Source: Candidatus Gastranaerophilales bacterium
Lineage (GTDB): Bacteria; Cyanobacteriota; Vampirovibrionia; Gastranaerophilales; Gastranaerophilaceae
Direction of reading: 5' to 3'
Assembly: GCA_944325945.1 (NCBI GenBank)
Contig: CALVBW010000031.1
Location: 1-64,000, forward strand
Length of the DNA stretch: 64,000 bases
This document shows positions 182 through 57,303 of this stretch, piece by piece; position 1 is the first letter of the stretch, and the number at the start of each line of letters is the position of its first letter. The notes beneath the pieces were generated by a model. That model was not told the DNA's origin and ran no database searches. It worked only from the letters and a program-made list of their open reading frames with translations. A program made the translations under genes and the position numbers.

Positions 182-751
182 TTAATAAACAATTTCTTCC
201 AAAAAAACACCATCACCCAGCAACTGCTGAATATATGTGATAGTGTTTTGCGTCAGCACTAACGACTTTCCTGACAGATGTACTTTCAAACTGCAAGGTG
301 CTGTATATGTTACAAAAACTTTATCCGCATTTGTTATTGTTTTTATAATATTTATATTCTCGGCTCTTGTGCCGCAGGATAAATTTGCGCCTATATAGGC
401 ATAAATTTTCTGGATATATTCAGCATCTTCAAGACTCAAAGGCGACTCGGGGTTCTGCCCTGATGTCAGAAAATAAAAACGTTTTTCGGTATTTATATGT
501 TTTCTGTTTACGCAAAAATAATTTCCGAAATCCATTTCATCACGCTGGGCACCAACTTCCGCACCCGCATAATCAAGCCAGACTCCGCGTGCATCCTGTA
601 TACTGTAACTGGTCTCAAGATAACCCGTCGCAGACTGCAAATTCGTAAATCTTGACCCCACTGCCTGTAATATTGTTTTTATATCCTCATTCTGCCTTAA
701 ATACGGAATTATGTTTTGCAATGACATTATCTGATAATCAATTATATCCAT
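182..751 (-). CDS. Putative phage baseplate or tail protein (DUF2612-like)
   Basis: 189 aa. The segment around residues 55-70, GVWLDYAGAEVGAQRD, resembles the 'GVxLDxxGxxVGxxR' signature I associate with DUF2612-type structural proteins of myophage and siphophage baseplates. It is followed by a helix with a GT motif (residues 125-135) and a beta-rich C-terminus. No signal peptide or membrane segment. It lies 15 bp downstream of a head-tail completion gene. Placing a baseplate-like gene directly after head completion genes, with no tube, sheath or tape-measure gene between, is unusual. The family call rests on one motif. Confidence 0.5.
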   Translation of the reverse strand: MDIIDYQIMSLQNIIPYLRQNEDIKTILQAVGSRFTNLQSATGYLETSYSIQDARGVWLDYAGAEVGAQRDEMDFGNYFCVNRKHINTEKRFYFLTSGQNPESPLSLEDAEYIQKIYAYIGANLSCGTRAENINIIKTITNADKVFVTYTAPCSLKVHLSGKSLVLTQNTITYIQQLLGDGVFLEEIVY

Positions 752-766
752 TTTATTCCTTTCTGA

Positions 767-1294
767 TTATTTATTAGTTATATCTATGTCAAGAGCTTTG
801 CCCTGCTCGGGTATGTATTCTTTTATGTCCTCAAATTCAAATACTATACAAATTTCTTTTCTGAACATCTGATTTGTTTCCGCAAAAGAACTTAAATCTC
901 TGACAGGTCCTGCCAGAAGCTCATTAACGGTTATTCCGTCCTCTGCAAGCTCCGCATGGGTTGATGATGTATCAATAAACAATTGTTCCGTATAATCTAT
1001 TATTTCATCGGATTCCTTCTCGGCATCGGAAGGATTCTCATAAAGCGAATATATCGAAAATAAAACATCAATCCTGTATTGCGCGCGTATATACTTCTTT
1101 TCGTCAGCTATAAAACTTTCAAAACGCTTGTTTATCCGGTTTCTTTCTCCGGTTTTTATTACCATATACGGATAAACCGGTACATCCGCACGCAGACGTT
1201 CTCTGAATATTTTCCCCTTTAATTCGGGAAATTTTTCCGTCATTTTTCCGTAAAAAAAACTGAAAAGTTTTGTCTTAAATTCATATGTTTTCAT
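767..1294 (-). CDS. Phage neck or tail-terminator-like protein
   Basis: 175 aa, soluble, mixed alpha/beta. The pattern 'YPYMVIKTGE ... YRIDVLFSIY' followed by a helix of about 30 residues recalls the gp12-like neck/tail terminator fold of tailed phages. Position supports this: it follows a head-closure-like gene, overlapping it by 14 bp (1281-1294), as in head completion modules. No catalytic motif. It could instead be another minor head-tail protein. Translation is probably coupled to the upstream gene. Confidence 0.45.
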   Translation of the reverse strand: MKTYEFKTKLFSFFYGKMTEKFPELKGKIFRERLRADVPVYPYMVIKTGERNRINKRFESFIADEKKYIRAQYRIDVLFSIYSLYENPSDAEKESDEIIDYTEQLFIDTSSTHAELAEDGITVNELLAGPVRDLSSFAETNQMFRKEICIVFEFEDIKEYIPEQGKALDIDITNK

Positions 1295-1610
1295 CTGTTT
1301 TCACCAAATATCCTTTGTAATAACTTAATCCGCGCATCTGCCAGAATTCACTCTCTCGAATTTCAAATAATATTCCGTTTATCTCAATTCTGTCAGCAGG
1401 CGCTAACTTTTCCTCACTGTAAAACACTCCGGTAATTCCGTATTTATTACCCGCCTCTGTTCCTATAAGATTTTCAACGGGCTCGTAATAACCTGAAATT
1501 TCTTTATAAAAATCCCATTTTGAAATACTTGCACCGCTCGTTTCATCAATTTTTACGGTGCGTTTTAATAATTTATATTTTTTATTTGAAAAAAATTTTA
1601 TAATGGACAC
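1281..1610 (-). CDS. Head-tail joining (head closure) protein
   Basis: 109 aa. Small all-beta protein ending in 'DRIEINGILFEIRESEFW...YYKGYLVK', the usual layout of SPP1 gp16 / lambda FII-type head closure proteins (Phage_H_T_join-like). The frame begins at a GTG (1610), with a weak AAGGAA about 12 nt upstream and a second GTG-free stretch before it, so the start is moderately certain. The gene is divergent from the metallophosphoesterase at 1654, separated by only 43 bp. Expression of this and the following phage genes must either read through the antisense phosphoesterase gene or begin in this short gap. Confidence 0.55.
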   Translation of the reverse strand: MSIIKFFSNKKYKLLKRTVKIDETSGASISKWDFYKEISGYYEPVENLIGTEAGNKYGITGVFYSEEKLAPADRIEINGILFEIRESEFWQMRGLSYYKGYLVKTDENI

Positions 1611-1638
1611 CTGTACTATTCCTTTTTTTATAATTTTG

Positions 1639-1653
1639 TGCTATAATTTAAAA
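1639..1653 (+). promoter_or_regulatory. Extended -10 promoter placing the transcript start at the ATG of the phosphoesterase
   Basis: TG-C-TATAAT at 1639-1647 is followed by exactly 6 nt and then the ATG at 1654. There is no Shine-Dalgarno. Transcription normally starts 6-7 nt after the hexamer, which here is the A of the start codon, so the mRNA would be leaderless. The -35 region (1619-1624) is weak. The same geometry recurs at six other genes in this window. Confidence 0.55.
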
Positions 1654-2343
1654 ATGCGGGAAATATTATTAATATCAATTTTGATAATCAGCTGGATATT
1701 TCTGATAGAGCCATCTCTGCTTGTGGTTCAAACATATGAAATAAAGTTTGAAGAACTTGCGGGGAAAAAAGCCGTACTTGCCGGCGATTTTCATTTCAAA
1801 GGCAAACACCGTGTAAATCAGGTCGTCCGAAAAATTAACGAACAAAACGCCGATTATATATTTTACATAGGAGATTACACGGAAAAAGTTCCGGCGGATT
1901 ACGTGACGGAAAAGCTTTCACAAGTTAATGCACCTGTTTATTCCGTTTCAGGAAACCATGACATGCCGGAAGATTTTCAAAAATTACCGAATCTTTTGCG
2001 CAACAGCCATATTGTAAATGACAATATTACAATTGCGGGAGTTGACTACTTTAGCCCGAATATTAAAAAAGCGCTTGAAAACGCAAAAGATCCCGTAATT
2101 CTTTTAAGCCATAATCCGGATATTCTGCCGAAAGTTCCCGGGCGGGTAAAACTTATTCTCTCCGGACACACACATGGCGGACAGGTAACCCTTTTCGGGC
2201 GACCGTTTGTAACTCCTTCGGCATACAAATTCGGCAAAGGGGTTATAAACAACAGGCTGATAATAACGGGGGGAACCGGAACCAGTATTGTTCCGGCAAG
2301 ACTTTTTAACCCGCCCGAAATTACCGTTATAGAATTTAAATAA
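1654..2343 (+). CDS. Membrane-anchored calcineurin-like metallophosphoesterase
   Basis: 229 aa. An N-terminal hydrophobic helix (residues 2-20) is followed by a metallophosphoesterase domain with the expected metal ligands in order: GDFH near residue 45, GDYTE near 72, GNHD near 99, SHNPD near 150 and GHTHGGQ near 172. This is the YkuE/YaeI type of membrane-associated phosphoesterase, acting at the outer face of the cytoplasmic membrane in relatives; the substrate is not predictable. I chose the ATG at 1654 over an upstream in-frame codon at 1558 because the hydrophobic helix starts there and the upstream residues overlap the phage gene. The gene lies antisense between two phage head genes, ending 1 bp from the convergent neighbour, like a phage moron. 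Confidence 0.85.
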   Translation: MREILLISILIISWIFLIEPSLLVVQTYEIKFEELAGKKAVLAGDFHFKGKHRVNQVVRKINEQNADYIFYIGDYTEKVPADYVTEKLSQVNAPVYSVSGNHDMPEDFQKLPNLLRNSHIVNDNITIAGVDYFSPNIKKALENAKDPVILLSHNPDILPKVPGRVKLILSGHTHGGQVTLFGRPFVTPSAYKFGKGVINNRLIITGGTGTSIVPARLFNPPEITVIEFK

Positions 2344-2344
2344 T

Positions 2345-2713
2345 CTATATGCCTATTTTTTTTAATCTTTCGGCTCTGTTTTTTGCATAATCTTGAAAAA
2401 GCAGCCTTAAAAGATCGGCTCTGCTTGCCATAGGATATTTTAGACCGTATTCAATACCGACATCGTTGTTATATTTGTCAATATTCATGTCATCATGACC
2501 TGAAAGAAAGCCGAAAATTTCATTCAGCCCGCCCAGAAATCCGGTAATTTTTTCACCGCGCATCTGCGTAAACACCGCCGCCGCATATTGATGACGCAAA
2601 TCGTTTGAATAAAGCTGCGGAGCATTTGTAACCGATCGCAGGTAATCTCCGACTTCCCGTTCCAAAAATTTTGCGTATTCATTATCAGATATAAGTTCTT
2701 TTAAGCCGTACAA
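2345..2713 (-). CDS. Prophage protein of unknown function
   Basis: 122 aa, mostly helical, no signal peptide. The pattern 'DLRHQYAAAVFTQM' with 'DKYNNDVGIEYG' about 30 residues later looks like the His plus D-x-x-N-N-x-x-G arrangement of some uncharacterised phage and toxin-associated domains (DUF6973-like). I am not certain of that link. Its ATG directly follows the stop of the upstream connector gene, so it belongs to the late operon and may be a head completion or accessory factor. It is the last gene before the interrupting phosphoesterase. Confidence 0.5.
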   Translation of the reverse strand: MYGLKELISDNEYAKFLEREVGDYLRSVTNAPQLYSNDLRHQYAAAVFTQMRGEKITGFLGGLNEIFGFLSGHDDMNIDKYNNDVGIEYGLKYPMASRADLLRLLFQDYAKNRAERLKKIGI

Positions 2714-3163
2714 TTAATATTTCTCCTCATAATAAGTATTTTCAATATCAAAGCCGGTTTTCAAAAGACCTGATAAAAGCAATTTTGTTTCCGAAGAAAG
2801 TTCAAAATTCGCGTTATCCGCAAAAGTTATACTTGCAGCTCCGAGCGAAATTGATTTAACATTTGAAGTATTTTCATAATCATTTGAGAATAATTCAAAT
2901 GTCTGTTCGCACACAGCAGCCTTAATTCTGTTTAAAACATCATACTTTTTGCCGCGTATAATTCTGGGGAAAGACATCTCCTGTTCAGGATCTGCCTTTC
3001 GCCCGAGAAAGGGTTGTATATCTATTTGTCTTGATGCCGTAACGAGAGCTTTCTCTTTTGAAGTTTCGTCAAGATCAGCCCAAAAATCAGCCCCGAGTTT
3101 TTCGTTAAAATACTCGTCGGCTTCTTCAATTGTAACGTATGTATTTTTATATATTTCCAACAT
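2714..3163 (-). CDS. Phage head-tail connector (annotated elsewhere as DnaT-like)
   Basis: 149 aa. It opens with 'YVTIEEADEYFNEKLGADFW' and continues with a helix pair, 'ASRQIDIQPFLGRKAD' and 'FPRIIRG', a pattern typical of phage proteins often labelled DnaT-like ssDNA-binding (DnaT_2). Their gene position beside the capsid argues for the connector/adaptor ring that sits under the portal. The Shine-Dalgarno AGAGGTG lies just upstream. A terminator hairpin separates it from the capsid gene, so it should be made in smaller amounts than capsid, which fits a ring protein. Confidence 0.65.
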   Translation of the reverse strand: MLEIYKNTYVTIEEADEYFNEKLGADFWADLDETSKEKALVTASRQIDIQPFLGRKADPEQEMSFPRIIRGKKYDVLNRIKAAVCEQTFELFSNDYENTSNVKSISLGAASITFADNANFELSSETKLLLSGLLKTGFDIENTYYEEKY

Positions 3164-3234: not shown

Positions 3235-4182
3235 TTATGATTCTTCCGCCGGTGCAAGAATAGCAAACGGGTAACCTGAAGAACTTTTTCTTGTAACCGG
3301 ATTTGCAATCTGCACACCTAAACGCATAACAACACGCAATGCCACCATATCCTGCTGTGCAAGGTTATAGGCAATGGTGCCGTCTGTATTCTGGATAATC
3401 GCCTCTGTCAAAAGCTTATAGGTGACATCCTGTCTGATTGAGTAAACAGCCTTTGAAAAATCGCCGCAGACCATTAAGGCTTTATCAGTATCAAAAACAC
3501 CGTTGTTGTCATAAACAATAGGTCTGCCGACAAGACTTGAGGCTGTATTTGTCATTAAGGATGAATTGTATAAAAGATTATTATTTTTATCTCTCAAATC
3601 TCTTAAATATGCCTCAAATGTAGCGTCAGCATAAAAACCGTTCACAACGAAACCTGATTTTTCAACCAGCGACATCATCCCGTCAACACCGATAATATCA
3701 GCAGCAACGTCAGTATTAGTACCGAGTGTGATAATTTGTGATTTTGCACTTGCGCCGTCGTAAATTGATGTCGGCCAGCTTGAGGGTTTATTTGTACCGA
3801 AAAGTATAGCTTTATCAATTGCAATTCCCATAGCTTCAACAATCTGCGGCTTAATTTCTTCCCAGATATCAAAAGATGAATCATCAAGAACCGCCTCCGG
3901 AATAGGGACAATTACCGCAAGTTCTTCTGCCGTAAGAGTTAATTTATCCCATTCGGCTCTGGTAGTTTTTTTCTGTGCGGTGTCGCCTGAGAGGAAATAA
4001 GCATCGGGCAGGGCGTTTTGAACCGGCAAAGTTTTTTGTTTTGACGGCATATTAGGCAGCCTTCTCATCAAGGGTAAGAGTTTGGAAGCCTGCGGGGTTT
4101 CTTTAATAATATCTTTGGAAATTTCCAAAGGGATAAGGGCATCCGCCCCTGTTCTGTCAATAATGTTTACATCTGTTGTCAT
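3235..4182 (-). CDS. HK97-family phage major capsid protein
   Basis: 315 aa. The order N-arm, 'LLPLMRRLPNMPSKQKTLPV', 'AEELAVIVPIPEAVLDDSSFDIWEEI', 'AIDKAILFG', and a C-terminal 'NPVTRKSSSGYPFAILAPA' matches the HK97 fold (Phage_capsid): E-loop/spine helix, then P and A domains. About 300 aa is normal for a capsid made without a fused scaffold, and a separate scaffold gene follows the portal gene here. It forms the icosahedral shell. Followed by an intrinsic terminator at 3175-3201. Confidence 0.85.
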   Translation of the reverse strand: MTTDVNIIDRTGADALIPLEISKDIIKETPQASKLLPLMRRLPNMPSKQKTLPVQNALPDAYFLSGDTAQKKTTRAEWDKLTLTAEELAVIVPIPEAVLDDSSFDIWEEIKPQIVEAMGIAIDKAILFGTNKPSSWPTSIYDGASAKSQIITLGTNTDVAADIIGVDGMMSLVEKSGFVVNGFYADATFEAYLRDLRDKNNNLLYNSSLMTNTASSLVGRPIVYDNNGVFDTDKALMVCGDFSKAVYSIRQDVTYKLLTEAIIQNTDGTIAYNLAQQDMVALRVVMRLGVQIANPVTRKSSSGYPFAILAPAEES

Positions 4183-4279: not shown

Positions 4280-4711
4280 CTATCTTCCTGCAGCCTGACG
4301 TATGAAAGTATTCATCAATTCAGAGGGGCTGAGGTTATTAATTTGAACCGGTTTAAATCCGCCGCCGTGGTTTTCTTCCTGTTTAAACAAAATGCCGTTT
4401 TCGCGCTTATATTCATCAATCCAGAGCTGAATATCTTGGCAGTCCTCCGGAATAATATTTGCCACGAGATCGGATTTAATACAGCCTGCTTTATCCAGAA
4501 GCAGCTGGCGTTTTACCAGTAAATTTTCTTTTTTTGTAAGTGCAAGTTCTTCCTGCAAAGATTTAAGCTGTTCTTGCGCGGTTTGATTTTCCGCAGAAGA
4601 ATTTTTCGCATTAATTCTGTATTTTGCGGCTTCTTTTCTCAAATCGGCAATTTGATTTTTCAAAGCCTGAATTTCCTGATCAGCACCCGGCTGATTAATT
4701 TCTTTTTCCAT
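4280..4711 (-). CDS. Phage capsid scaffolding protein
   Basis: 143 aa. Residues 10-75 form a strongly charged coiled coil (EIQALKNQIADLRKEAAKYR and on), followed by a Gly-rich linker and a short C-terminal helix (SPSELMNTFIRQAAGR). This is the usual layout of small phage scaffolding (GP20-like) proteins, which guide procapsid assembly through the C-terminal helix. Its position between portal and capsid genes supports the call. It ends 3 bp before the portal-capsid gap filled by repeat R1; Shine-Dalgarno is weak and translation may be coupled to the portal gene 3 bp upstream. Confidence 0.75.
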   Translation of the reverse strand: MEKEINQPGADQEIQALKNQIADLRKEAAKYRINAKNSSAENQTAQEQLKSLQEELALTKKENLLVKRQLLLDKAGCIKSDLVANIIPEDCQDIQLWIDEYKRENGILFKQEENHGGGFKPVQINNLSPSELMNTFIRQAAGR

Positions 4712-4714
4712 AGT

Positions 4715-5905
4715 TTAGTCTCCCCATATAATTTGTACGTCAACCTCTTTATGACCAGCGAAAGCAAGCGCGCATTTAACGGTTTTTATAATGGCGTTAT
4801 TCAAAGAAACCGTTCTTATGTCGTCGACTTTTGCCATAGCAGAGGTAAAAATTTGTTTTAAACTCTCGCCGGACATATTGGATTCTATATCCAGCCCGTA
4901 GGCTTGAGGCGGAGTTTTTGAAAGCATATAGAAAAATTGCATCAAAGTATCAATATGAGATTTTATAGCATCAGCCTGCAAATCCGCCGTAATATATTCG
5001 GGCTTTGCACCGTCGCGGCCGATTGTTATGAAATCCGAATTCGGAAAATGTCTTTCACCCGTTGATGGATCCATTTCGGTGTTTTCAATGCTTCCTGCAA
5101 GTTTTGGATTTGCATGCCGGTTAATTATCTTGGAATTTTGCGAAACCGTCAGCATAATCTCTTCAATTATACTTTCACAGGATTTGTAATCGCTTTCTCC
5201 GTAGTAAGTATCGCTTTCCGTCGTGTTTTTTACCGGAAAAAGTACAAAATCATCCCATTTGTTTGAAAAATCATCAACAGGTTTTACGCCGAACGCGTCA
5301 ATTTCAGGCACGGGGCGCAAAAGTCTGCCGTTAGAGATTTCCCATATTTCGTTTTCTATAAACCCGCCGTGAATTTTTTCAATATGCTTATATATTTTAC
5401 CGTCTTTAACAATATCGTAAAGAAGAATATGCCCTGCAGGATCGTTCAAATTCCCGTTATTAAAAACCGGAAACCAGCAGTCAGGACAGACAGAAAAAAT
5501 TTTAACTTTGTTATTCACATACGCAACTTTAAAAAGTGCATCGCCAAATCTGGAATTATCAATACAAATTTCCTTGATAACCGTTAAAAAATTATTGTCC
5601 GTACTGATTTTTTCCCAATCTTTACGGGCGCTGTCGCTGACTTTTATCTCAAAATTGTTATTTGTAATCAAAAATTTATAAAAATCCGTAAGTGCTTTAA
5701 ACAGATTAACCTCAATCAAACTTTGGGCGGTAGTGTTACTCAAAGGGTATCTCTGTCTGATTTTTCGCAAAACATTAGAAAAAGGTCTGGAAAAATTACT
5801 TCTGTATAAGTCCCTGTATTTTGCGTAATTGCGGAAACGTTCAATATCGTCAGCATTCCATTTTAAACTTTTAAAATTTTCGTTTATGTCAAAAGTTGTA
5901 AGCAT
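4715..5905 (-). CDS. Phage portal protein
   Basis: 396 aa. It contains the helical entry 'YRDLYRSNFSRPFSNVLRKIRQRYPLSN', a beta-rich clip/wing region (NNKVKIFSVCPDCWFPVF) and a long stem-helix region with 'LMQFFYMLSKTPPQAYGLD', a pattern seen in SPP1 gp6-type portals. It forms the dodecameric DNA channel at one capsid vertex. It lies between terL (17 bp upstream) and the scaffold. It is slightly shorter than SPP1 portal (about 500 aa) but internally continuous. Confidence 0.8.
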   Translation of the reverse strand: MLTTFDINENFKSLKWNADDIERFRNYAKYRDLYRSNFSRPFSNVLRKIRQRYPLSNTTAQSLIEVNLFKALTDFYKFLITNNNFEIKVSDSARKDWEKISTDNNFLTVIKEICIDNSRFGDALFKVAYVNNKVKIFSVCPDCWFPVFNNGNLNDPAGHILLYDIVKDGKIYKHIEKIHGGFIENEIWEISNGRLLRPVPEIDAFGVKPVDDFSNKWDDFVLFPVKNTTESDTYYGESDYKSCESIIEEIMLTVSQNSKIINRHANPKLAGSIENTEMDPSTGERHFPNSDFITIGRDGAKPEYITADLQADAIKSHIDTLMQFFYMLSKTPPQAYGLDIESNMSGESLKQIFTSAMAKVDDIRTVSLNNAIIKTVKCALAFAGHKEVDVQIIWGD

Positions 5906-5922: not shown

Positions 5923-7179
5923 TTAAGATTTTTCCGTAAGATATTTATAAAGTCCGTAGCGTAAAGCGTCCATACAATCGTCATTAAGCTTGACCGGCGA
6001 ATCTTCAGGCGACAGATCATCCTGTTCATACCTGTAAAGTCCGAATTCTTCAAGAGTATGAACGCATTGATCGGATACTATAAGTTTGTCATAATTAATC
6101 AAAGACCTGACAAGCGAAATACTGTCCTCAACCTTTGGTTTTTCTTCGTAAATGACCAGATTGGTATAACGTCTTAATTTCTCGTTCTGCTCAGGGCGTG
6201 CATTATCACAGTTTGCATAGCTGAAAAACTTTTTATACTCCGTTTGTTTCAGGTTAATCCATTTGATAACGCCGTCAGAATCAAGCTTTTGAGAATAAAG
6301 TTCGTCAATGACGTAACACACACCGTCAGGGGTATTTCCCAGAAGCAGGCACGCCGTCGGGTGATTCCAACCCCAGTCAATCCCGAGAAAATATTCCGCG
6401 ACTTCGCCTTTTTGAATTTTTTCAAAAAGTTTTGAATGTTTTACAGTATGCTTTTCCCTGCTGAAAGTATCATAGACAAGTCCTTCCGCAATAACCCAGA
6501 GCCCGTCTATCTTCCGTTTTTTGAAAGCACCTTTGTATAATTTCTCTTGATTTTTAATAAAAACCTCCGACAGATTTGCATTATCATACATAGTGAAATG
6601 CAAATATTCAAAAACCTGCCGGACATTTTCATCACCGTCAAGCCATGGCTTTATTTTTTCAGTATAAAGCCAGTGGTTTGAGCTTTCGGGGTTGCTGTCC
6701 GCAAAAGCTCGTGCATTTGCGGGTGTCAAACGGCTTAATGCCATATTATAAAACGAATAATTGTGTCTCGGAAGCTCATTTGCGTACCAGAAATCCCATG
6801 TTCCGCCCTGAATTGCGTTCAGACTGTCGGATTTGCCGCCGCCCGTAACGTAACAATCATATCTTTTGCCGAAAAGTTTTATTTCCATTTCGCCGTTTGA
6901 ATGATTATACCGGACTTTTCCGCCGAGATAGTCTTCTATAAAAGGTTTTAATTCAATTAATACGTTATTTTTGACGGAATTTCTTGAATATCCGGAAAAT
7001 ACTTTTAAATATTCATTTCCGACAAATTCAAAAATCTGCGGTATTTTTTGAATAATGCTTAAAGTTTTTCCGCTCCTGACAGCACCGTCCAGCAGGGTAA
7101 ACAGCGGAAATTCTTCAGGGGGCTTGCTTAAAAAATTCCGAACCTTTTCACCGTATTTACTATTTTCCCATTTTATCAT
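5923..7179 (-). CDS. terL: Terminase large subunit
   Basis: 418 aa, normal length for a PBSX/T4-superfamily packaging motor. ATPase: Walker A GAVRSGKT at residues 32-39, an acidic Walker B-like strand before 'NELPRHNYSFYN', and the coupling motif 'ADSNPESSNHWLY'. RNase H-like nuclease: 'FLGIDWGWNHP' near residue 268 and 'NDDCMDALRYGLYKY' near the end, giving the catalytic aspartates. It overlaps terS by 20 bp (7160-7179), so translation is probably coupled. It cleaves and pumps DNA into the procapsid. Confidence 0.92.
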   Translation of the reverse strand: MIKWENSKYGEKVRNFLSKPPEEFPLFTLLDGAVRSGKTLSIIQKIPQIFEFVGNEYLKVFSGYSRNSVKNNVLIELKPFIEDYLGGKVRYNHSNGEMEIKLFGKRYDCYVTGGGKSDSLNAIQGGTWDFWYANELPRHNYSFYNMALSRLTPANARAFADSNPESSNHWLYTEKIKPWLDGDENVRQVFEYLHFTMYDNANLSEVFIKNQEKLYKGAFKKRKIDGLWVIAEGLVYDTFSREKHTVKHSKLFEKIQKGEVAEYFLGIDWGWNHPTACLLLGNTPDGVCYVIDELYSQKLDSDGVIKWINLKQTEYKKFFSYANCDNARPEQNEKLRRYTNLVIYEEKPKVEDSISLVRSLINYDKLIVSDQCVHTLEEFGLYRYEQDDLSPEDSPVKLNDDCMDALRYGLYKYLTEKS

Positions 7180-7573
7180 TTGTTAATTCTGACATTGCTT
7201 TTAAATAAGCATCTCTGATTTCTGTATCGTGCGAGGATTCTTTACACATATCGGTTAAATTTTTTGCGGCAAATGCAGTGTAAGTTGCATTGTAAAACCC
7301 GCGAAGCGCAAGATCATTCAACATATCTTTCTGCAAAGCCTGACATTTTTTATATGTGTCGGAAAACTCTTTATGCTCCCTGCACCACATTATAAGATCT
7401 TCTGCGCAAACACCTGTATTCACTGCAAATTTTTCAAATGTAGGCAGGATATTCGGCAATTCTATCAATTTTTCACTCCCGTTTCGTTCAGGAACAAGTT
7501 TTTCGTATGTATGCGGGATATTAAAAAATTCAAACATCCGCCTGCAATATATTTTTTTATATTTCTTTGCCAT
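7160..7573 (-). CDS. terS: Terminase small subunit
   Basis: 137 aa. 'LPTFEKFAVNTGVCAEDLIMWCREHKEFSDTYKKC' is the helix-turn-helix plus helical segment common in DNA-packaging small terminases, followed by 'LNDLALRGFYNATYTAFAAKNL', another recurrent part of this family. It recognises the packaging initiation site. A tandem 10-bp repeat starts 48 bp upstream of its start codon and is a candidate recognition site. It is the first gene of the leftward late operon. Confidence 0.8.
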   Translation of the reverse strand: MAKKYKKIYCRRMFEFFNIPHTYEKLVPERNGSEKLIELPNILPTFEKFAVNTGVCAEDLIMWCREHKEFSDTYKKCQALQKDMLNDLALRGFYNATYTAFAAKNLTDMCKESSHDTEIRDAYLKAMSELTNDKMGK

Positions 7574-7620
7574 ATGTTTCTACATTTTAACTTTAAACCG
7601 TATTCCCGATTTAAACAAGT

Positions 7621-7693
7621 GTGAAATGGTGTTACATGGTGTAATTTGGTGTAACGGGGTGTGAGTTGGTGTGAGTTGGTTTAAGTTGGTGTA
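7621..7693. repeat. Seven-copy 10-bp phased direct repeat, consensus GTnAnnTGGT
   Basis: Seven consecutive decamers run from 7621 to 7690, with a partial eighth. A at position 4 and GGT at positions 8-10 are invariant; TGGT occurs in 6 of 7 and GT at positions 1-2 in 6 of 7. The period matches one DNA turn, so every copy faces the same side of the helix. It lies in the 241-bp gap between terS and a divergent ribbon-helix-helix gene. Likely a protein-binding array: a packaging site, a partition-like site or an operator. Confidence 0.75.
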
Positions 7694-7720
7694 AATTTTC
7701 CTGAAACCCGCTGATAATTT

Positions 7721-7734
7721 AACCCAGCTGGGTT
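7721..7734. promoter_or_regulatory. Perfect 14-bp palindrome, candidate operator
   Basis: AACCCAGCTGGGTT is a perfect inverted repeat without spacer, 80 bp upstream of the ribbon-helix-helix gene and 28 bp after the decamer array. Its size fits a dimeric repressor site. No T-tract follows on either strand, so it is not a terminator. Confidence 0.5.
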
Positions 7735-7814
7735 ATAGACATAGGTATATTAGCATATTATCCTATTTTTATAGAAGTTTAGAGTATATGCCTGAAAATT
7801 TTTAAGGAATACGA

Positions 7815-7943
7815 ATGGAAGAGAAAGTAATCATTAAAATACATGACGAAAAAATAAAAGAAAAACTAAAATTAATACGTAAATCAAACATCAATATAAC
7901 AGATCTTATTTGCAGCTGGATTCTTGAATATACAATTAAATAA
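7815..7943 (+). CDS. Small ribbon-helix-helix DNA-binding protein
   Basis: 42 aa, starting MEEKVIIKIHDEKIKEKLKL. A short beta strand (VIIKIHD), helix A (EKIKEKLKLIRKSN), a turn, and helix B (ITDLICSWILEYTIK) are the Arc/CopG/ParD layout. Shine-Dalgarno AAGGAAT precedes the ATG at 7815. It is too short to be picked up by usual length cut-offs. It sits between the prophage and recN, divergent from terS, facing a decamer array and a palindrome. In this family such proteins bind direct repeats or palindromes as repressors; autoregulation or control of the phage operon is inference. Confidence 0.7.
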   Translation: MEEKVIIKIHDEKIKEKLKLIRKSNINITDLICSWILEYTIK

Positions 7944-7948
7944 AATAC

Positions 7949-7983
7949 TTGCCCATAATGATTTTTACGGGTATTATAAAAGT
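7949..7983 (+). promoter_or_regulatory. Sigma-70 promoter of recN, leaderless start
   Basis: TTGCCC (7949-7954), a 17-bp spacer, TATTAT (7972-7977), then 6 nt to the ATG at 7984. No Shine-Dalgarno lies in the 6-nt interval. The predicted transcript begins at the start codon. Confidence 0.6.
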
Positions 7984-9636
7984 ATGATAAAGCAATTACG
8001 GTTAAAAAATTACATTTTAATAGACGAATTAACCGCGAATTTTGACGGCGGCTTGAATATCATAACAGGTGAAACCGGCGCAGGAAAAAGCATTTTGATT
8101 AACGCAATTGATCTTGCGTTTGCGCCGAGAGTATCAAAAGAGGTTATAAAAACAGGCTGTGATAAAGCCGTGATTGAACTGGTTCTTGAAAACAAAAAGC
8201 ACGATTTAACCGGATTTTACGCGGAAAACGGCATTGATAATCTCGGAGATGAAATCATTATAACAAAAGAAATCACACAAAACGGGGTGCGTTCAAGGAT
8301 TAACGGAACACTTGTGAATACGGAATTATTAAGGAGCCTGAGGGCTTTGTTTGTGGATATTCACTCCCAGCACCAAACATATTCATTTATGCAACCCAAA
8401 TACCATATAACACTTCTGGATTCGTACGGCAAAACCTCTTACGGCAGCAAACTTGAGGAATACAAAACACTTTTTGCGCATTATCAAGAATTGAAATCGC
8501 AACTTGTAACCGCAAAAAATTCCGCTGATATGACAGAATCGCAAATCGAATTTTTAAAATTCCAAATAAACGAAATTGAAACAGCCGAAATCAAATCCGA
8601 AACCGAAGATGAAGATTTGACCCGCGAACTTGAAGTTCTTGAAAACGCGGAAAAGCTCAAAGAATTAACCGGAACGTCCTACTGGGCGCTCAACGGCGAT
8701 GAAGGTTCAATTCTTGAGGGGTTAAATAAAATCAAAGCCAATATTTCAAAAGCCGCAGCCTTTGACCCGAAACTTTCGGATATCGAGCAATGTATAATTG
8801 AGGCGTCCGAAACGCTCAAAGCGGCAGGCAGCGACCTTAACCGCTACAGCCAAAATCTCGAAAACGATACGGAAAGATTAGACCGGATTCAGGAACGCCT
8901 GTTTTTGCTTGATAAATTGAAACGTAAATACGGCGGAACTCTCCTCGATGTCTTAAAAACTTATGACAATTTGAGCCAAGAATTGTCGTCTGTTGAATTT
9001 TCCACCCGAAATATCGAAGAATTGGAACAGAAAATTACGGAAACAGAGCATGAACTTATGCAAAAAGCTCAGGTAATCAGCAATTACCGCAAAGATTTTG
9101 CAAAAGTTCTGTCAGTACAAATTCAGGATAAACTTGAACTTTTGGAGCTGCCGAAATCACGGTTTGAAATATCAGTACGGCAAAAAGAACTTTCACCTGA
9201 CGGAATTGACGATGTAGAATTTTTAATTTCCACAAATGTTTCGGAGGATTTGAAACCGCTTGCAAAAGTCGCGTCAGGCGGCGAGGTTTCGCGTGTAATG
9301 CTTGCGATAAAGACGATTTTTGCGGGAAATGACAACATTGATACCGTTATTTTTGACGAAATTGACACAGGAATTTCAGGAAGGGCATCCCAGAGCGTTG
9401 CGGACGAAATCGTTGCGCTGTCAAAATTCCGCCAGATAATCCTGATTACACATCAGGCAATAATCGCCTCAAAATCAGATAAACATTTTTATGTAAGAAA
9501 ATCCCAAACAGATGAAACAAAAGTCGAAGTCTATGTTCTGACCGGCGAAAACAAGATTAAGGCGCTGGCGGAACTTGCAGGCGGCGAGATTAACCGGACT
9601 TCCATTGATTTTGCCCGCTCACTCGTAAATTCGTAA
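7984..9636 (+). CDS. recN: DNA repair protein RecN
   Basis: 550 aa, usual length. SMC-like ATPase for double-strand break repair: it holds broken ends and assists RecA. Walker A 'ITGETGAGKS' at residues 29-38, a Q-loop region 'DIHSQHQTY', a central antiparallel coiled coil (about 150-400), the ABC signature 'VASGGEVSRVM' near 428, and 'VIFDEIDTGISG' (Walker B) near 455. I place the start at the ATG 7984 because family proteins begin 'MLxxLxIxNx', matched by MIKQLRLKNYILID. An upstream TTG at 7924 would overlap the 42-aa gene and the promoter. Confidence 0.95.
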   Translation: MIKQLRLKNYILIDELTANFDGGLNIITGETGAGKSILINAIDLAFAPRVSKEVIKTGCDKAVIELVLENKKHDLTGFYAENGIDNLGDEIIITKEITQNGVRSRINGTLVNTELLRSLRALFVDIHSQHQTYSFMQPKYHITLLDSYGKTSYGSKLEEYKTLFAHYQELKSQLVTAKNSADMTESQIEFLKFQINEIETAEIKSETEDEDLTRELEVLENAEKLKELTGTSYWALNGDEGSILEGLNKIKANISKAAAFDPKLSDIEQCIIEASETLKAAGSDLNRYSQNLENDTERLDRIQERLFLLDKLKRKYGGTLLDVLKTYDNLSQELSSVEFSTRNIEELEQKITETEHELMQKAQVISNYRKDFAKVLSVQIQDKLELLELPKSRFEISVRQKELSPDGIDDVEFLISTNVSEDLKPLAKVASGGEVSRVMLAIKTIFAGNDNIDTVIFDEIDTGISGRASQSVADEIVALSKFRQIILITHQAIIASKSDKHFYVRKSQTDETKVEVYVLTGENKIKALAELAGGEINRTSIDFARSLVNS

Positions 9637-16640: not shown

Positions 16641-16754
16641 ATTATTAATAAAATTTATCATACAAGTCCGATAATAAAGGTCTTGACATTAAAAGGAAGT
16701 TAATATAGATTAATTAAAGGCGGCTTTACACGTCTATTGACAACTAAATATGCA

Positions 16755-16935
16755 GGCATGTGGTACTCTGCCGAGCAAAACGATTAAGTATCGTTTTGCG
16801 AGAGGTGGTAGACACGCCTTTGCCGAAGGCAAACTGAAAAATATGGGCATGTGGTACTCTGCCGAGCAAAACGATTGAGTATCGTTTTGCGAGAGGTGGT
16901 AGACACGCCTTTGCCAAAGGCAAACTGAAAAATAT
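16755..16935 (+). repeat. Two 91-bp tandem units: truncated tRNA-Leu 5' copies with a palindrome in the D-arm
   Basis: Each unit repeats the first bases of the intact tRNA (GGCATGTGGT), then a 41-nt insertion (16765-16805 and 16856-16896), then the tRNA again (TGGTAGACACGC), and a spacer hairpin TTTGCC-n3-GGCAAA. The insertion has the stem GCAAAACGAT/ATCGTTTTGC with loop TAAGT or TGAGT, enclosed by CTCT/AGAG. The period is exactly 91 bp from 16755 to 16846 to 16937, where the true tRNA begins. The units differ at only two positions that I see. In the intact tRNA the four bases GGAA occupy the insertion site. Confidence 0.85.
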
Positions 16936-17014
16936 GGGCATGTGGTGGAATGGTAGACACGCTAGTCTTAGGAACTAGTGCTAACGCGTGGGAGTTCGAG
17001 TCTCTTCATGCCCA
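16936..17014 (+). tRNA. tRNA-Leu (anticodon TAG)
   Basis: Acceptor stem GGGCATG pairs with CATGCCC; the anticodon loop CTTAGGA gives TAG (reads CUA and related Leu codons). It has the long variable arm expected of a class II tRNA and T-arm GTTCGAGTC. CCA is not encoded; a T run follows directly and may terminate. TTGACA at 16683 with TATAGA 15 bp on is a possible promoter upstream of the tandem units, so those would be transcribed with the tRNA. Confidence 0.95.
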
Positions 17015-23545: not shown

Positions 23546-23834
23546 GATTTTTGTAAAACTTTTTTACAAAAATCTGATAGGCACACCAACAACCTATATG
23601 TTGTCGTGCCGACTGAAAACCGAATAGGTTCTCCAAAACCGGATGGTTACAGTTTTTTTGTAAAACTTTTTTTACAAAAATCTGATAGGCATACCAACAA
23701 CCAATATGTTGTCGTGCCGACTGAAAACCGAACAGGTTCTCCAAAACCGGAAGGTTACAGTTTTTTTGTAAAACTTTTTTTACAAAAACCGTAAAAGGCA
23801 ACGAACAACCTATATGTTGTCGTGCCTCAGGCAC
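23546..23834 (+). repeat. Tandem 107/108-bp palindrome-rich units upstream of tRNA-Pro
   Basis: Corresponding points (the G of GTAAAAC) lie at 23553, 23660, 23768 and again at 23954. Each unit carries an AT hairpin (TTTTTGTAAA/TTTACAAAAA), a hairpin GGCAC...ACAAC/GTTGTCGTGCC, and AACC-GAATA-GGTT. The third unit diverges after the AT hairpin and ends in GTGCC-TCA-GGCAC immediately before the truncated tRNA copy. No protein gene is supported. Confidence 0.8.
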
Positions 23835-35057: not shown

Positions 35058-35370
35058 GAATGACATAAAACCTCACGCCACTCAATTTACTCACTTTACT
35101 CACTCTAAAAACTTCTTATTGCACTAGTATCTTTTACTTGAGATCCTGAAATAAATTCAGGATGACAGGATTATTGTCGTGGCTTTTGCTCCATCTCCCT
35201 GCGGGAGAGGGAAGGGTGAGGGGGTGGCATAGTGAATAAGGAAATAGGGAAATAAGTTGTATCTAAAATATATCTGAGCGGATTTTTTCAATATCCGCTT
35301 TATATAACACTTATTCCCTTATTTACTTATTTACTTCTTACTGCCTTAGTATCTTAGTATCTTAGTAACA
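35058..35370. repeat. Intergenic cluster of R3, R4, R1 and R2 repeats
   Basis: In order: R3 (GAGATCCTGAAATAAATTCA, near 35140), a CATCTCCCTGCGGGAGAGGG palindrome (R4-like, near 35192), a complete inverted R1 copy at 35231-35334 with GTGAATAAGGAAATAGGG and its complement as arms, and short CTTAGTAT octamers of R2 (35343-35370). Four repeat families within 300 bp; no gene. Confidence 0.7.
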
Positions 35371-55692: not shown

Positions 55693-55947
55693 AACTTCTA
55701 AAATCTAAGACGTAAATTTTCCGGCGTTGTTCCGGCGCCAATCAGGGAAGTGTAGAGAGTAAAAAGTGTTTGTTGTACGCTTAATTAAATAAGCGTTATT
55801 TGTCGTGCGAAAACGGCATTCTTTGATCCCCTCCCCCCTTGAGGGGGAGGGCAACAAAACCACGAAAATAACCCGGAAATTGTAGATTGGGGTTTACACT
55901 TATTCCCTTTAGTCGTGCGAAAGTTGTATCATAAGTATCTTAGTACC
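55693..55947. other. Intergenic region with CGGCG hairpin and R4/R2 repeats
   Basis: Contains CCGGCG-n6-CGGCGCC-type inverted bases (55730-55745), an R4 palindrome CCCCTCCCCCCTTGAGGGGG (55829-55852), and then the R2 octamers at 55938-55971 that run into bioA. No gene. Confidence 0.5.
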
Positions 55948-57303
55948 TTAGTATCCTAGTATCTTAGTAACTTCTTCCGTACATTCAAGCGCAACGTCCG
56001 TTACAAAATCCATGTCCTGTTTTTCGATTATCAAAGGCGGGTTAAAGTAGATTACGTTGCCCAGAGGTCTTAAAAGCACCCCGCGTGTAAGGGCTTTTTT
56101 GTAAATTTGATAACCCACACGCAAATCGCTTTCAAACGGCTCTTTTGTGTTTTTATCTTTCACGAGTTCTATTGCATTAATAAGTCCGATTGAACGGACT
56201 TCCCCGACATTTTTGAGCGGAAGGAATTTTTCTTTAATAATTTTATTAAAATACGGCGCCTTTTCGTTTGCTTTTTGAATAATATTTTCATCTTCAAGAA
56301 TATTCAGGACTTCGCACGCTGCGGAAGCGGCAAGAGGGTTCCCGCTATAAGTATGGCTGTGCATAAAGGCTTTACCTTTATTGTAATCTGCATAAAATGC
56401 GTCATAAATCTTCCGGGTAGTAATAAACACCGCCATCGGCATATATCCGCCTGTCAAACCTTTTGAAAGACACATTATATCAGGCGAAACACCGGCATGG
56501 TCGAACGCAAACATCTTGCCTGTTCTGCCGTAACCCGTTGCGATTTCGTCCGCAATCAAATGAACGTTGTATTTGTCGCACAACCCGCGTAATTTTTTCA
56601 AATACAGCGGCGGATAAATCTTCATTCCCGCCGACCCCTGCAACAAAGGTTCAACAAGAATTGCAGCGGTTTCGCCGCCATAGCGCGCAAAAGTTTTTTC
56701 CGCATTTTCAAAACACTCACAATTACAGTTGTCGCGGCATTTGCCGTAAGGGCATCTAAAACAATCCGGTCCGTCAATTCTCACTATATCAAGCAAAATA
56801 GGTTTGTAAATTTCGGAATACAAATCCACGCCGCCGACAGATAGCGCTCCGATGGTTTCACCGTGATAAGCGTCTGACAGCGCCATAAAACGTTTTTTCT
56901 GCGGGTTTCCTGTCTGGTAATGGTACTGAAAACTAACCTTCATCGCAGCCTCAATCGCAGATGAGCCGTTATCCGTAAAATTAAATTTACAAAGCCCCTC
57001 AGGCAAAACTTTTGAAAGCTTTTCACACAAATTTATAACAGGCTTGTGGGTAAAATTTGCGAAAATAACGTGTTCAAGCCGGTCAATCTGTGATTTTACG
57101 GCAGAGTTAATTCTCGGATTGCAGTGCCCGAGAAGATTACACCACCACGAACTCACAACATCCGCGTAGCTTTTCCCGTCAACGTCATACAGATATAACC
57201 CATTGCCGTGGTCAATCACAATAGGCGGCAAATCCTCGTAATCCTTCATCTGGGAACAAGGATGCCAGATATATTCCAAATCCTTTTCCTGCCATTCGTT
57301 CAT
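55948..57303 (-). CDS. bioA: Adenosylmethionine-8-amino-7-oxononanoate aminotransferase
   Basis: 451 aa. PLP enzyme converting KAPA to DAPA in biotin synthesis with SAM as amino donor. 'YIWHPCSQMKDYEDLPPIVI' (BioA N-terminus), 'SSWWCNLLGHCNPRIN', 'GSSAIEAAMKVSFQYH', 'HGETIGALSVGG', 'HLIADEIATGYGRTGKMFAFDHAGVSPDIMCLSKGLTGGYMP' (catalytic Lys). Full length. The last ten codons (EEVTKILGY and stop) are built of R2 octamers. Its ATG directly follows the bioD stop, with AAGGAG inside the bioD end. Confidence 0.95.
   Translation of the reverse strand: MNEWQEKDLEYIWHPCSQMKDYEDLPPIVIDHGNGLYLYDVDGKSYADVVSSWWCNLLGHCNPRINSAVKSQIDRLEHVIFANFTHKPVINLCEKLSKVLPEGLCKFNFTDNGSSAIEAAMKVSFQYHYQTGNPQKKRFMALSDAYHGETIGALSVGGVDLYSEIYKPILLDIVRIDGPDCFRCPYGKCRDNCNCECFENAEKTFARYGGETAAILVEPLLQGSAGMKIYPPLYLKKLRGLCDKYNVHLIADEIATGYGRTGKMFAFDHAGVSPDIMCLSKGLTGGYMPMAVFITTRKIYDAFYADYNKGKAFMHSHTYSGNPLAASAACEVLNILEDENIIQKANEKAPYFNKIIKEKFLPLKNVGEVRSIGLINAIELVKDKNTKEPFESDLRVGYQIYKKALTRGVLLRPLGNVIYFNPPLIIEKQDMDFVTDVALECTEEVTKILGY

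Follow-up and report, generated by a model that had tools for sequence, protein, structure and literature searches.

What is the function of a strictly phased array of short direct repeats that lies between a phage-type terminase gene and a very small divergent gene, and which protein would occupy it? This question is raised by a locus of a Gastranaerophilales bacterium, whose order represents a non-photosynthetic sister lineage of Cyanobacteria. We analysed a stretch of 64,000 nucleotides (here, the window) from its genome (1.63 Mb in 32 contigs, labelled G000), together with a genus sample of 16 genomes, nine of which carry the structural gene cluster that begins with terS and seven of which do not. 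The elements surrounding the array are as follows:

7160-7573 (- strand): terS, small terminase subunit gene, the first gene of the structural cluster (phrog_3064, E 2e-20)
7590-7595 (- strand): -10-like hexamer TAAAGT in the terS promoter, separated from the -35 by 17 bp, as in all nine genomes
7613-7618 (- strand): -35-like hexamer TTGTTT in the terS promoter, contiguous with the array, recognized by sequence
7619-7698 (no strand assigned): array of eight 10-bp units, conserved in nine species
7721-7734 (no strand assigned): palindrome AACCCAGCTGGGTT just upstream of the -35 of the small gene, a possible operator
7736-7764 (+ strand): promoter of the small gene, TAGACA-N17-TATCCT, with a conserved spacer (GTATATTAGCATA) and the same arrangement in nine of nine genomes
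7815-7943 (+ strand): gene of a 42-aa ribbon-helix-helix (RHH)-like protein, candidate binder of the array

The array is composed of head-to-tail units in the order GTGTGAAATG GTGTTACATG GTGTAATTTG GTGTAACGGG GTGTGAGTTG GTGTGAGTTG GTTTAAGTTG GTGTAAATTT, which follow the consensus GTKTRANNNR (that is, GTKTRA and four further bases), the last one being decayed. The initial annotation had described seven GTnAnnTGGT decamers in perfect 10-bp phase. The array is real and the phase exact; yet only five of these decamers match that pattern fully, the other two being one base off, and the region is better described by eight GTKTRANNNR units. Three such units in succession, with at most one mismatch, were matched six times in the window, in every case inside the array, and never in 100 dinucleotide shuffles of the window. 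Counting an overlapping ATTTAA before unit 1, hexamers spaced by 10 bp form a run of nine, whereas no run in 30 windows simulated with a Markov model exceeded four.

We found that the array is retained throughout one Gastranaerophilales clade, in nine of nine species. Both the number and the phase of the repeats had been expected to recur in relatives: the 10-bp step is indeed constant in nine of nine species, but the number of units at terS varies from three to eight, and the bases in the middle of the unit drift. In a set of 55 units, positions 1, 2, 4 and 6 carry 1.8–2.0 bits, positions 3, 5 and 10 are partly conserved and position 7 is random (0.06 bits). As judged from the aligned units, this per-position pattern is that of a selected binding site and not just of recent duplication, and the proposal that the array forms a regular scaffold for protein binding is well supported. 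Arrays of the GTKTRANNNR type do not occur above chance in sister-genus clusters, and viral contigs with a capsid gene (821 kb in total) contained neither arrays nor the RHH gene. The intergenic array region had no match in a phage collection, and an Rfam scan of the window and four related loci returned tRNAs only.

The position of the array is set by the terS promoter. In nine of nine genomes it adjoins the -35 element (TTGTTT in eight, TTGTTA in G009), which is followed after 17 bp by TAAAGT or a variant of the TAxxGT type, the distance from array to -10 being exactly 23 bp (the 6-bp -35 plus 17) in each. The distance from the array to the terS start codon ranges from 45 to 90 bp, and that to the -35 of the RHH gene from 15 to 376 bp, without phase; in G007 an insertion is present on the RHH side of the array only. 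Because the promoter spacing is fixed while the distances to terS and the RHH gene vary, we assign the array to the terS promoter. The G007 insertion (contig C90, locus L009) consists of ~340 bp of repeat-like sequence between the array and the RHH promoter. A second candidate -10 hexamer, TAAAAT, is located directly downstream (7584-7589); it was our first guess and was dropped after the pilT promoter, described below, had given the shared 23-bp spacing. The presumed terS 5' leader of four loci (L003, L004, L008, and L009) contains a GC-rich hairpin of the AGGACCC...GGGTCCC type, possibly an attenuator, which is absent in the window.

A search of all 16 genomes located a second array site, flush on the -35 (TTGTCA) of the promoter of pilT, a gene followed downstream by recO with overlapping ends. 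Of the nine genomes with the cluster, six have two or more units there, as does none of the seven others; G007, G009 and G015 lack the pilT array, and several genomes carry a short or decayed one. In the window's own genome it is found on another contig than the terS array (G000:C17:80274-80293). The distance from array to -10 is again 23 bp in every cluster-bearing genome with a pilT array, and the core pilT promoter is present in most of the 16 genomes, with or without the array. In G007, a dicarboxylate-type symporter gene is preceded by a third site, at 23 bp from a TATGAT -10. The fixed register of array, -35 and -10, as expected of an activator-dependent sigma-70 promoter, is shared by terS, pilT and one symporter gene. 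Within the 16 genomes, ACAAGTGTRANNNNGTKKRA is matched exactly at the terS or pilT promoters of genomes with the cluster and nowhere else in the genus. Beyond the 10-bp array, T-rich repeats (TTTATC-type) and 11-bp repeats (AAAGGGTTTGC) are common to the regions upstream of pilT (L127) and of the symporter gene (L128) in different genomes, which gives the impression of a composite intergenic element that has changed its place.

The reading that we prefer, and to which we give a probability of roughly 55%, is that the array acts as an upstream activating sequence occupied by an RHH-like binder, with terS and pilT-recO in one shared regulon and the structural cluster a relic resembling a gene transfer agent (GTA). 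The binder would be a small protein, most probably the 42-aa RHH-like one, that occupies neighbouring units along a single face of the helix, the first RHH dimer settling next to the -35 and others loading along the phased units. The bound protein would then recruit RNA polymerase to the terS promoter with its poor -35 and turn on the terS-terL-capsid-tail cluster, and the number of units would tune promoter strength. Through the array at pilT-recO, pilus retraction and recombination would enter the cluster's regulon in most of the nine species. Protein binding, the identity of the binder, and activation rather than repression are what we infer here.

The 42-aa gene is preceded by a sequence resembling a ribosome-binding site, is intact in nine genomes and has a dN/dS of 0.22; on this evidence it is genuine and under purifying selection. 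The protein is encoded once in each of the nine cluster-bearing genomes, that is, together with the array in nine of nine and in none of the seven others, and nowhere else above chance level among 288 genomes of the family. Since the nine genomes form one clade with one shared origin, the joint presence of gene and array is a weak argument that the two are physically linked. RHH proteins of the MetJ/Arc/CopG type have a core of 40–50 aa in which a strand precedes two helices, and as dimers they insert a beta ribbon into the major groove. The sequence of the 42-aa protein opens with a conserved strand-like KxIIIKL segment, followed by helices at 12-23 and 28-38; the monomer was modelled with a pLDDT of 84, and the strand needs the dimer for modelling. 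Pairwise hhalign comparison with CopG gave a weak alignment (E 0.007, 40 columns, probability 5%). An RHH fold is likely, to go by sequence and model, and the protein is plausible as the leading candidate binder. The initial proposal that this protein binds the array thus keeps the divergent neighbourhood, the strict co-occurrence and the RHH-compatible sequence and model on its side, but not an RHH profile match: searches of Pfam, NCBIfam, PHROGs, PDB sequences and Foldseek yielded none.

The array might instead be bound by an OmpR/PhoB-family two-component regulator of the host (e.g., RpaB-like) that activates terS and pilT-recO, the RHH protein acting elsewhere, for example as its own repressor. 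Direct repeats adjoining -35 elements are the targets of OmpR-family proteins, and the cyanobacterial RpaB site, with two (G/T)TTACA(T/A)(T/A) repeats 2 nt apart, has a 10-bp period (PMC9241938). Every genome of the genus encodes two to three strong OmpR-type proteins, and two units, one OmpR-type dimer's worth, seem to be sufficient at pilT. OmpR-type sites normally have fewer tandem units than eight. Such regulators are present in all 16 genomes, yet the array is confined to those nine that carry the cluster, and exact matches to the array-start pattern are restricted to terS and pilT. We regard a host regulator, the main rival, as unlikely, while granting it a real chance; because the array is confined to cluster-bearing genomes, a factor encoded by the cluster is favoured as the binder.

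The preferred reading also covers the nature of the cluster. Apart from terS, the window contains the following parts of it and of its flank:

182-751 (- strand): baseplate gene at the contig end (phrog_1160), the tail genes running off the contig
767-3163 (- strand): head-tail connector genes (2714-3163, 2345-2713, 1281-1610, 767-1294)
1558-2343 (+ strand): metallophosphoesterase gene, interrupting the head-tail genes
3235-4182 (- strand): major capsid protein gene, HK97 family (Phage_capsid, E 3e-34)
4280-4711 (- strand): gene of a scaffold-like protein, between the portal and capsid genes (weak phrog_233 match)
4715-5905 (- strand): portal protein gene (SPP1_portal, E 6e-17)
5923-7179 (- strand): terL, large terminase subunit gene (phrog_2, Pfam Terminase_6N/6C)
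7949-7977 (+ strand): recN promoter, TTGCCC-N17-TATTAT
7984-9636 (+ strand): recN, host DNA repair gene, the fixed flank of the cluster (SMC_N/RecN)

The left end of the cluster is visible in one genome only (G015), where a spanning contig holds ~19.7 kb from an M15 endolysin gene to terS, with lysis, tail, head and terminase genes, between flanks of host genes (Hsp20 and an RNA methyltransferase; recN). The right edge falls between the RHH stop codon and the recN promoter, which is also present in most cluster-free genomes. The metallophosphoesterase gene sits inside the head-tail genes in nine of nine genomes and has a weaker relative in g13 clusters.

GTAs (viriforms) are defined as consisting of proteins from tailed phages, endogenized in the host genome, often across several loci, and inherited mostly vertically, and as packaging mostly random host DNA, being unable to package the whole of their own genome, and delivering DNA to recipient cells (PMC9662315). 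The terminase subunits, portal, capsid, adaptors, sheath, hub, baseplate and endolysin are all phage-derived, of the contractile-tail type. With terS in nine of 16 genomes, the order terS - array - RHH gene - recN is the same in all nine, the recN locus is fixed and no mobile form was found. The nine genomes form one clade with a support of 0.99 (host genes recN, pilT and recO), which implies one acquisition and no loss of the cluster. The structural genes are intact and show dN/dS values of 0.04–0.16 and a dS as high as that of the host genes recN and pilT; capsid identities of 92–98% between the window's genome and the rest of the clade compare with at most 66% on viral contigs and 50% among named phages. 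Cluster distances correlate with those of recN (Mantel r 0.42–0.83) and mostly not with those of pilT, recN and pilT being themselves uncorrelated, and the divergence of recN does not agree with that of the phage genes for G000/G010.

The cluster might also be an ordinary prophage that prefers recN as its site of attachment, with the array as its late-gene control region. Its complete head, tail and lysis genes, and capsid relatives up to 66% identical on viral contigs, speak for this. However, the cluster is present in all nine clade members, and integrase, repressor and replication genes are missing from the complete G015 copy and its flanks, the contigs of the other genomes ending inside the cluster. 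Moreover, close TerS relatives are absent from the viral contigs, and in sister genera homologues of the capsid, portal and terminase genes stand in a different order with other genes interspersed, a comparison limited by contig breaks. A mobile element is rather unlikely on these grounds, and the cluster is probably a domesticated, vertically inherited, GTA-like relic of a contractile-tailed phage. The array's first description as lying at a "prophage edge" is accordingly probably wrong, the flank being the conserved recN locus.

Homologues of capsid (80–82%), portal and adaptor genes were also noticed on a 5-kb contig of a more distant member of the genus that lacks terS and the array (G008:C42, L088), and from these the ancestor may have had the cluster at another location. 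Four sister-genus loci (L027, L029, L030, and L033) possess a conserved leader of ~85 nt about 350–450 bp upstream of terS, with a two-part stem (CCCGGTAAAAC...GTTTTACAATACGGG) whose inner helix shows compensatory changes in four pairs. It precedes a zinc-ribbon-like ORF and then terS, has no Rfam match in the loci scanned, and is possibly another kind of switch by which this cluster is controlled.

The initial annotation had further offered TerS itself as binder, the array being its packaging (pac/cos) recognition site. Pac sites are often near terS, the array is upstream of this gene, and in the TerS model the helix pair 46-66 could be a helix-turn-helix and hence a possible DNA binder. Nevertheless, the distance of the array to the promoter is fixed and that to terS variable, so its position is not tied to the gene as that of a pac site would be; it also recurs at pilT-recO on another contig, and TerS relatives of the sister genus, 55–62% identical, are not accompanied by a GTKTRANNNR-type array. 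The fixed place of the array at the promoter and its recurrence at pilT-recO favour an activator scaffold over a packaging site, which we abandoned as leading reading and consider improbable.

Still less credit can be given to the array as operator for autorepression by the RHH-like protein, or as partition-type binding array. Autorepression through repeats is known for RHH proteins such as omega, ParG and CopG, and the RHH gene adjoins the array. Yet the variable, unphased distance to the RHH promoter and the G007 insertion in between disfavour an autoregulatory operator, and this promoter has a conserved palindrome and spacer of its own: the palindrome-like motif is found at the matching position in most of the nine genomes, most clearly in six, and no further copy of the promoter with its conserved spacer exists in the genus. 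A partition function lacks a partner ATPase and a plasmid context. Finally, slippage does occur in the array, as the near-identical units of G003 demonstrate, but invariant bases 1, 2, 4 and 6 beside a random base 7 in nine species, the fixed promoter spacing and the second target operon leave a neutral, functionless slippage product hardly credible.

Other repeats were seen in the window as well. Pairs of 8-bp tandem arrays (e.g., TAAGGGAA, CTTAGTAT) occur at 26268-26303/26358-26383, 27197-27232/27288-27317, 35235-35367 and 55926-55973, several of them inverted around a short spacer, and tandem repeats of ~108 bp (23548-23826) and 91 bp (16746-16946) adjoin tRNA-Pro and tRNA-Leu genes, respectively.

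It is possible, if doubtful, that gut Gastranaerophilales possess a GTA and that a 42-aa RHH-like activator, acting on the arrays, co-switches particle production and pilT-recO; here we infer both particle production and gene transfer. We found no GTA report for this lineage, and literature searches on GTAs in Melainabacteria and prophages in Gastranaerophilales returned nothing relevant. If true, common uncultured gut bacteria would harbour a candidate GTA with a compact switch, DNA export and DNA uptake/recombination would belong to one regulon, and the arrays would be a rare sequence-level clue coupling the making of transfer particles with a pilus-retraction/RecO operon, the link between donor and recipient functions being a debated one for GTAs. 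In addition, the array offers a specific motif for finding further regulon members.

Several known systems resemble parts of this arrangement. CopG, omega and ParG, which bind repeats cooperatively, share the strand-helix-helix pattern with the 42-aa protein; known RHH operators, however, usually have a period of 7–9 bp, against 10 bp here, these proteins typically serve autorepression, and the 42-aa protein matches no RHH profile. BldC of Streptomyces is likewise a very small protein that binds cooperatively and head-to-tail to a variable number of short direct repeats, but it is MerR-like and its repeats are of 9 bp, whereas our candidate is RHH-like with 10-bp repeats (PMC5859096). The RpaB/HLR1 system has direct repeats of 10-bp period positioned for activation as well, though with two repeats of core KTTACA, in contrast to two to eight of core GTKTRA restricted to cluster-bearing genomes (PMC9241938). 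The fixed phage structural cluster inherited with the host recalls the GTAs of Brachyspira, Bartonella and Rhodobacter, which are unrelated clusters in other phyla, for which DNA packaging and transfer have been shown (PMC9662315). In the Caulobacter crescentus GTA, a degenerate -35 is served by the dedicated activator GafY with IHF, which also acts on ~18 peripheral promoters (PMC11150451). The likeness extends to the phage-derived cluster, the poor -35 and the further promoters with an array; in contrast, GafY binds far upstream and needs bending by IHF (PMC11150451), while here tandem 10-bp units abut the -35, and the 42-aa RHH-like candidate is unlike GafY/GafZ. The putative activator array and the GTA-like cluster are variants of known things, with a specific candidate regulon.
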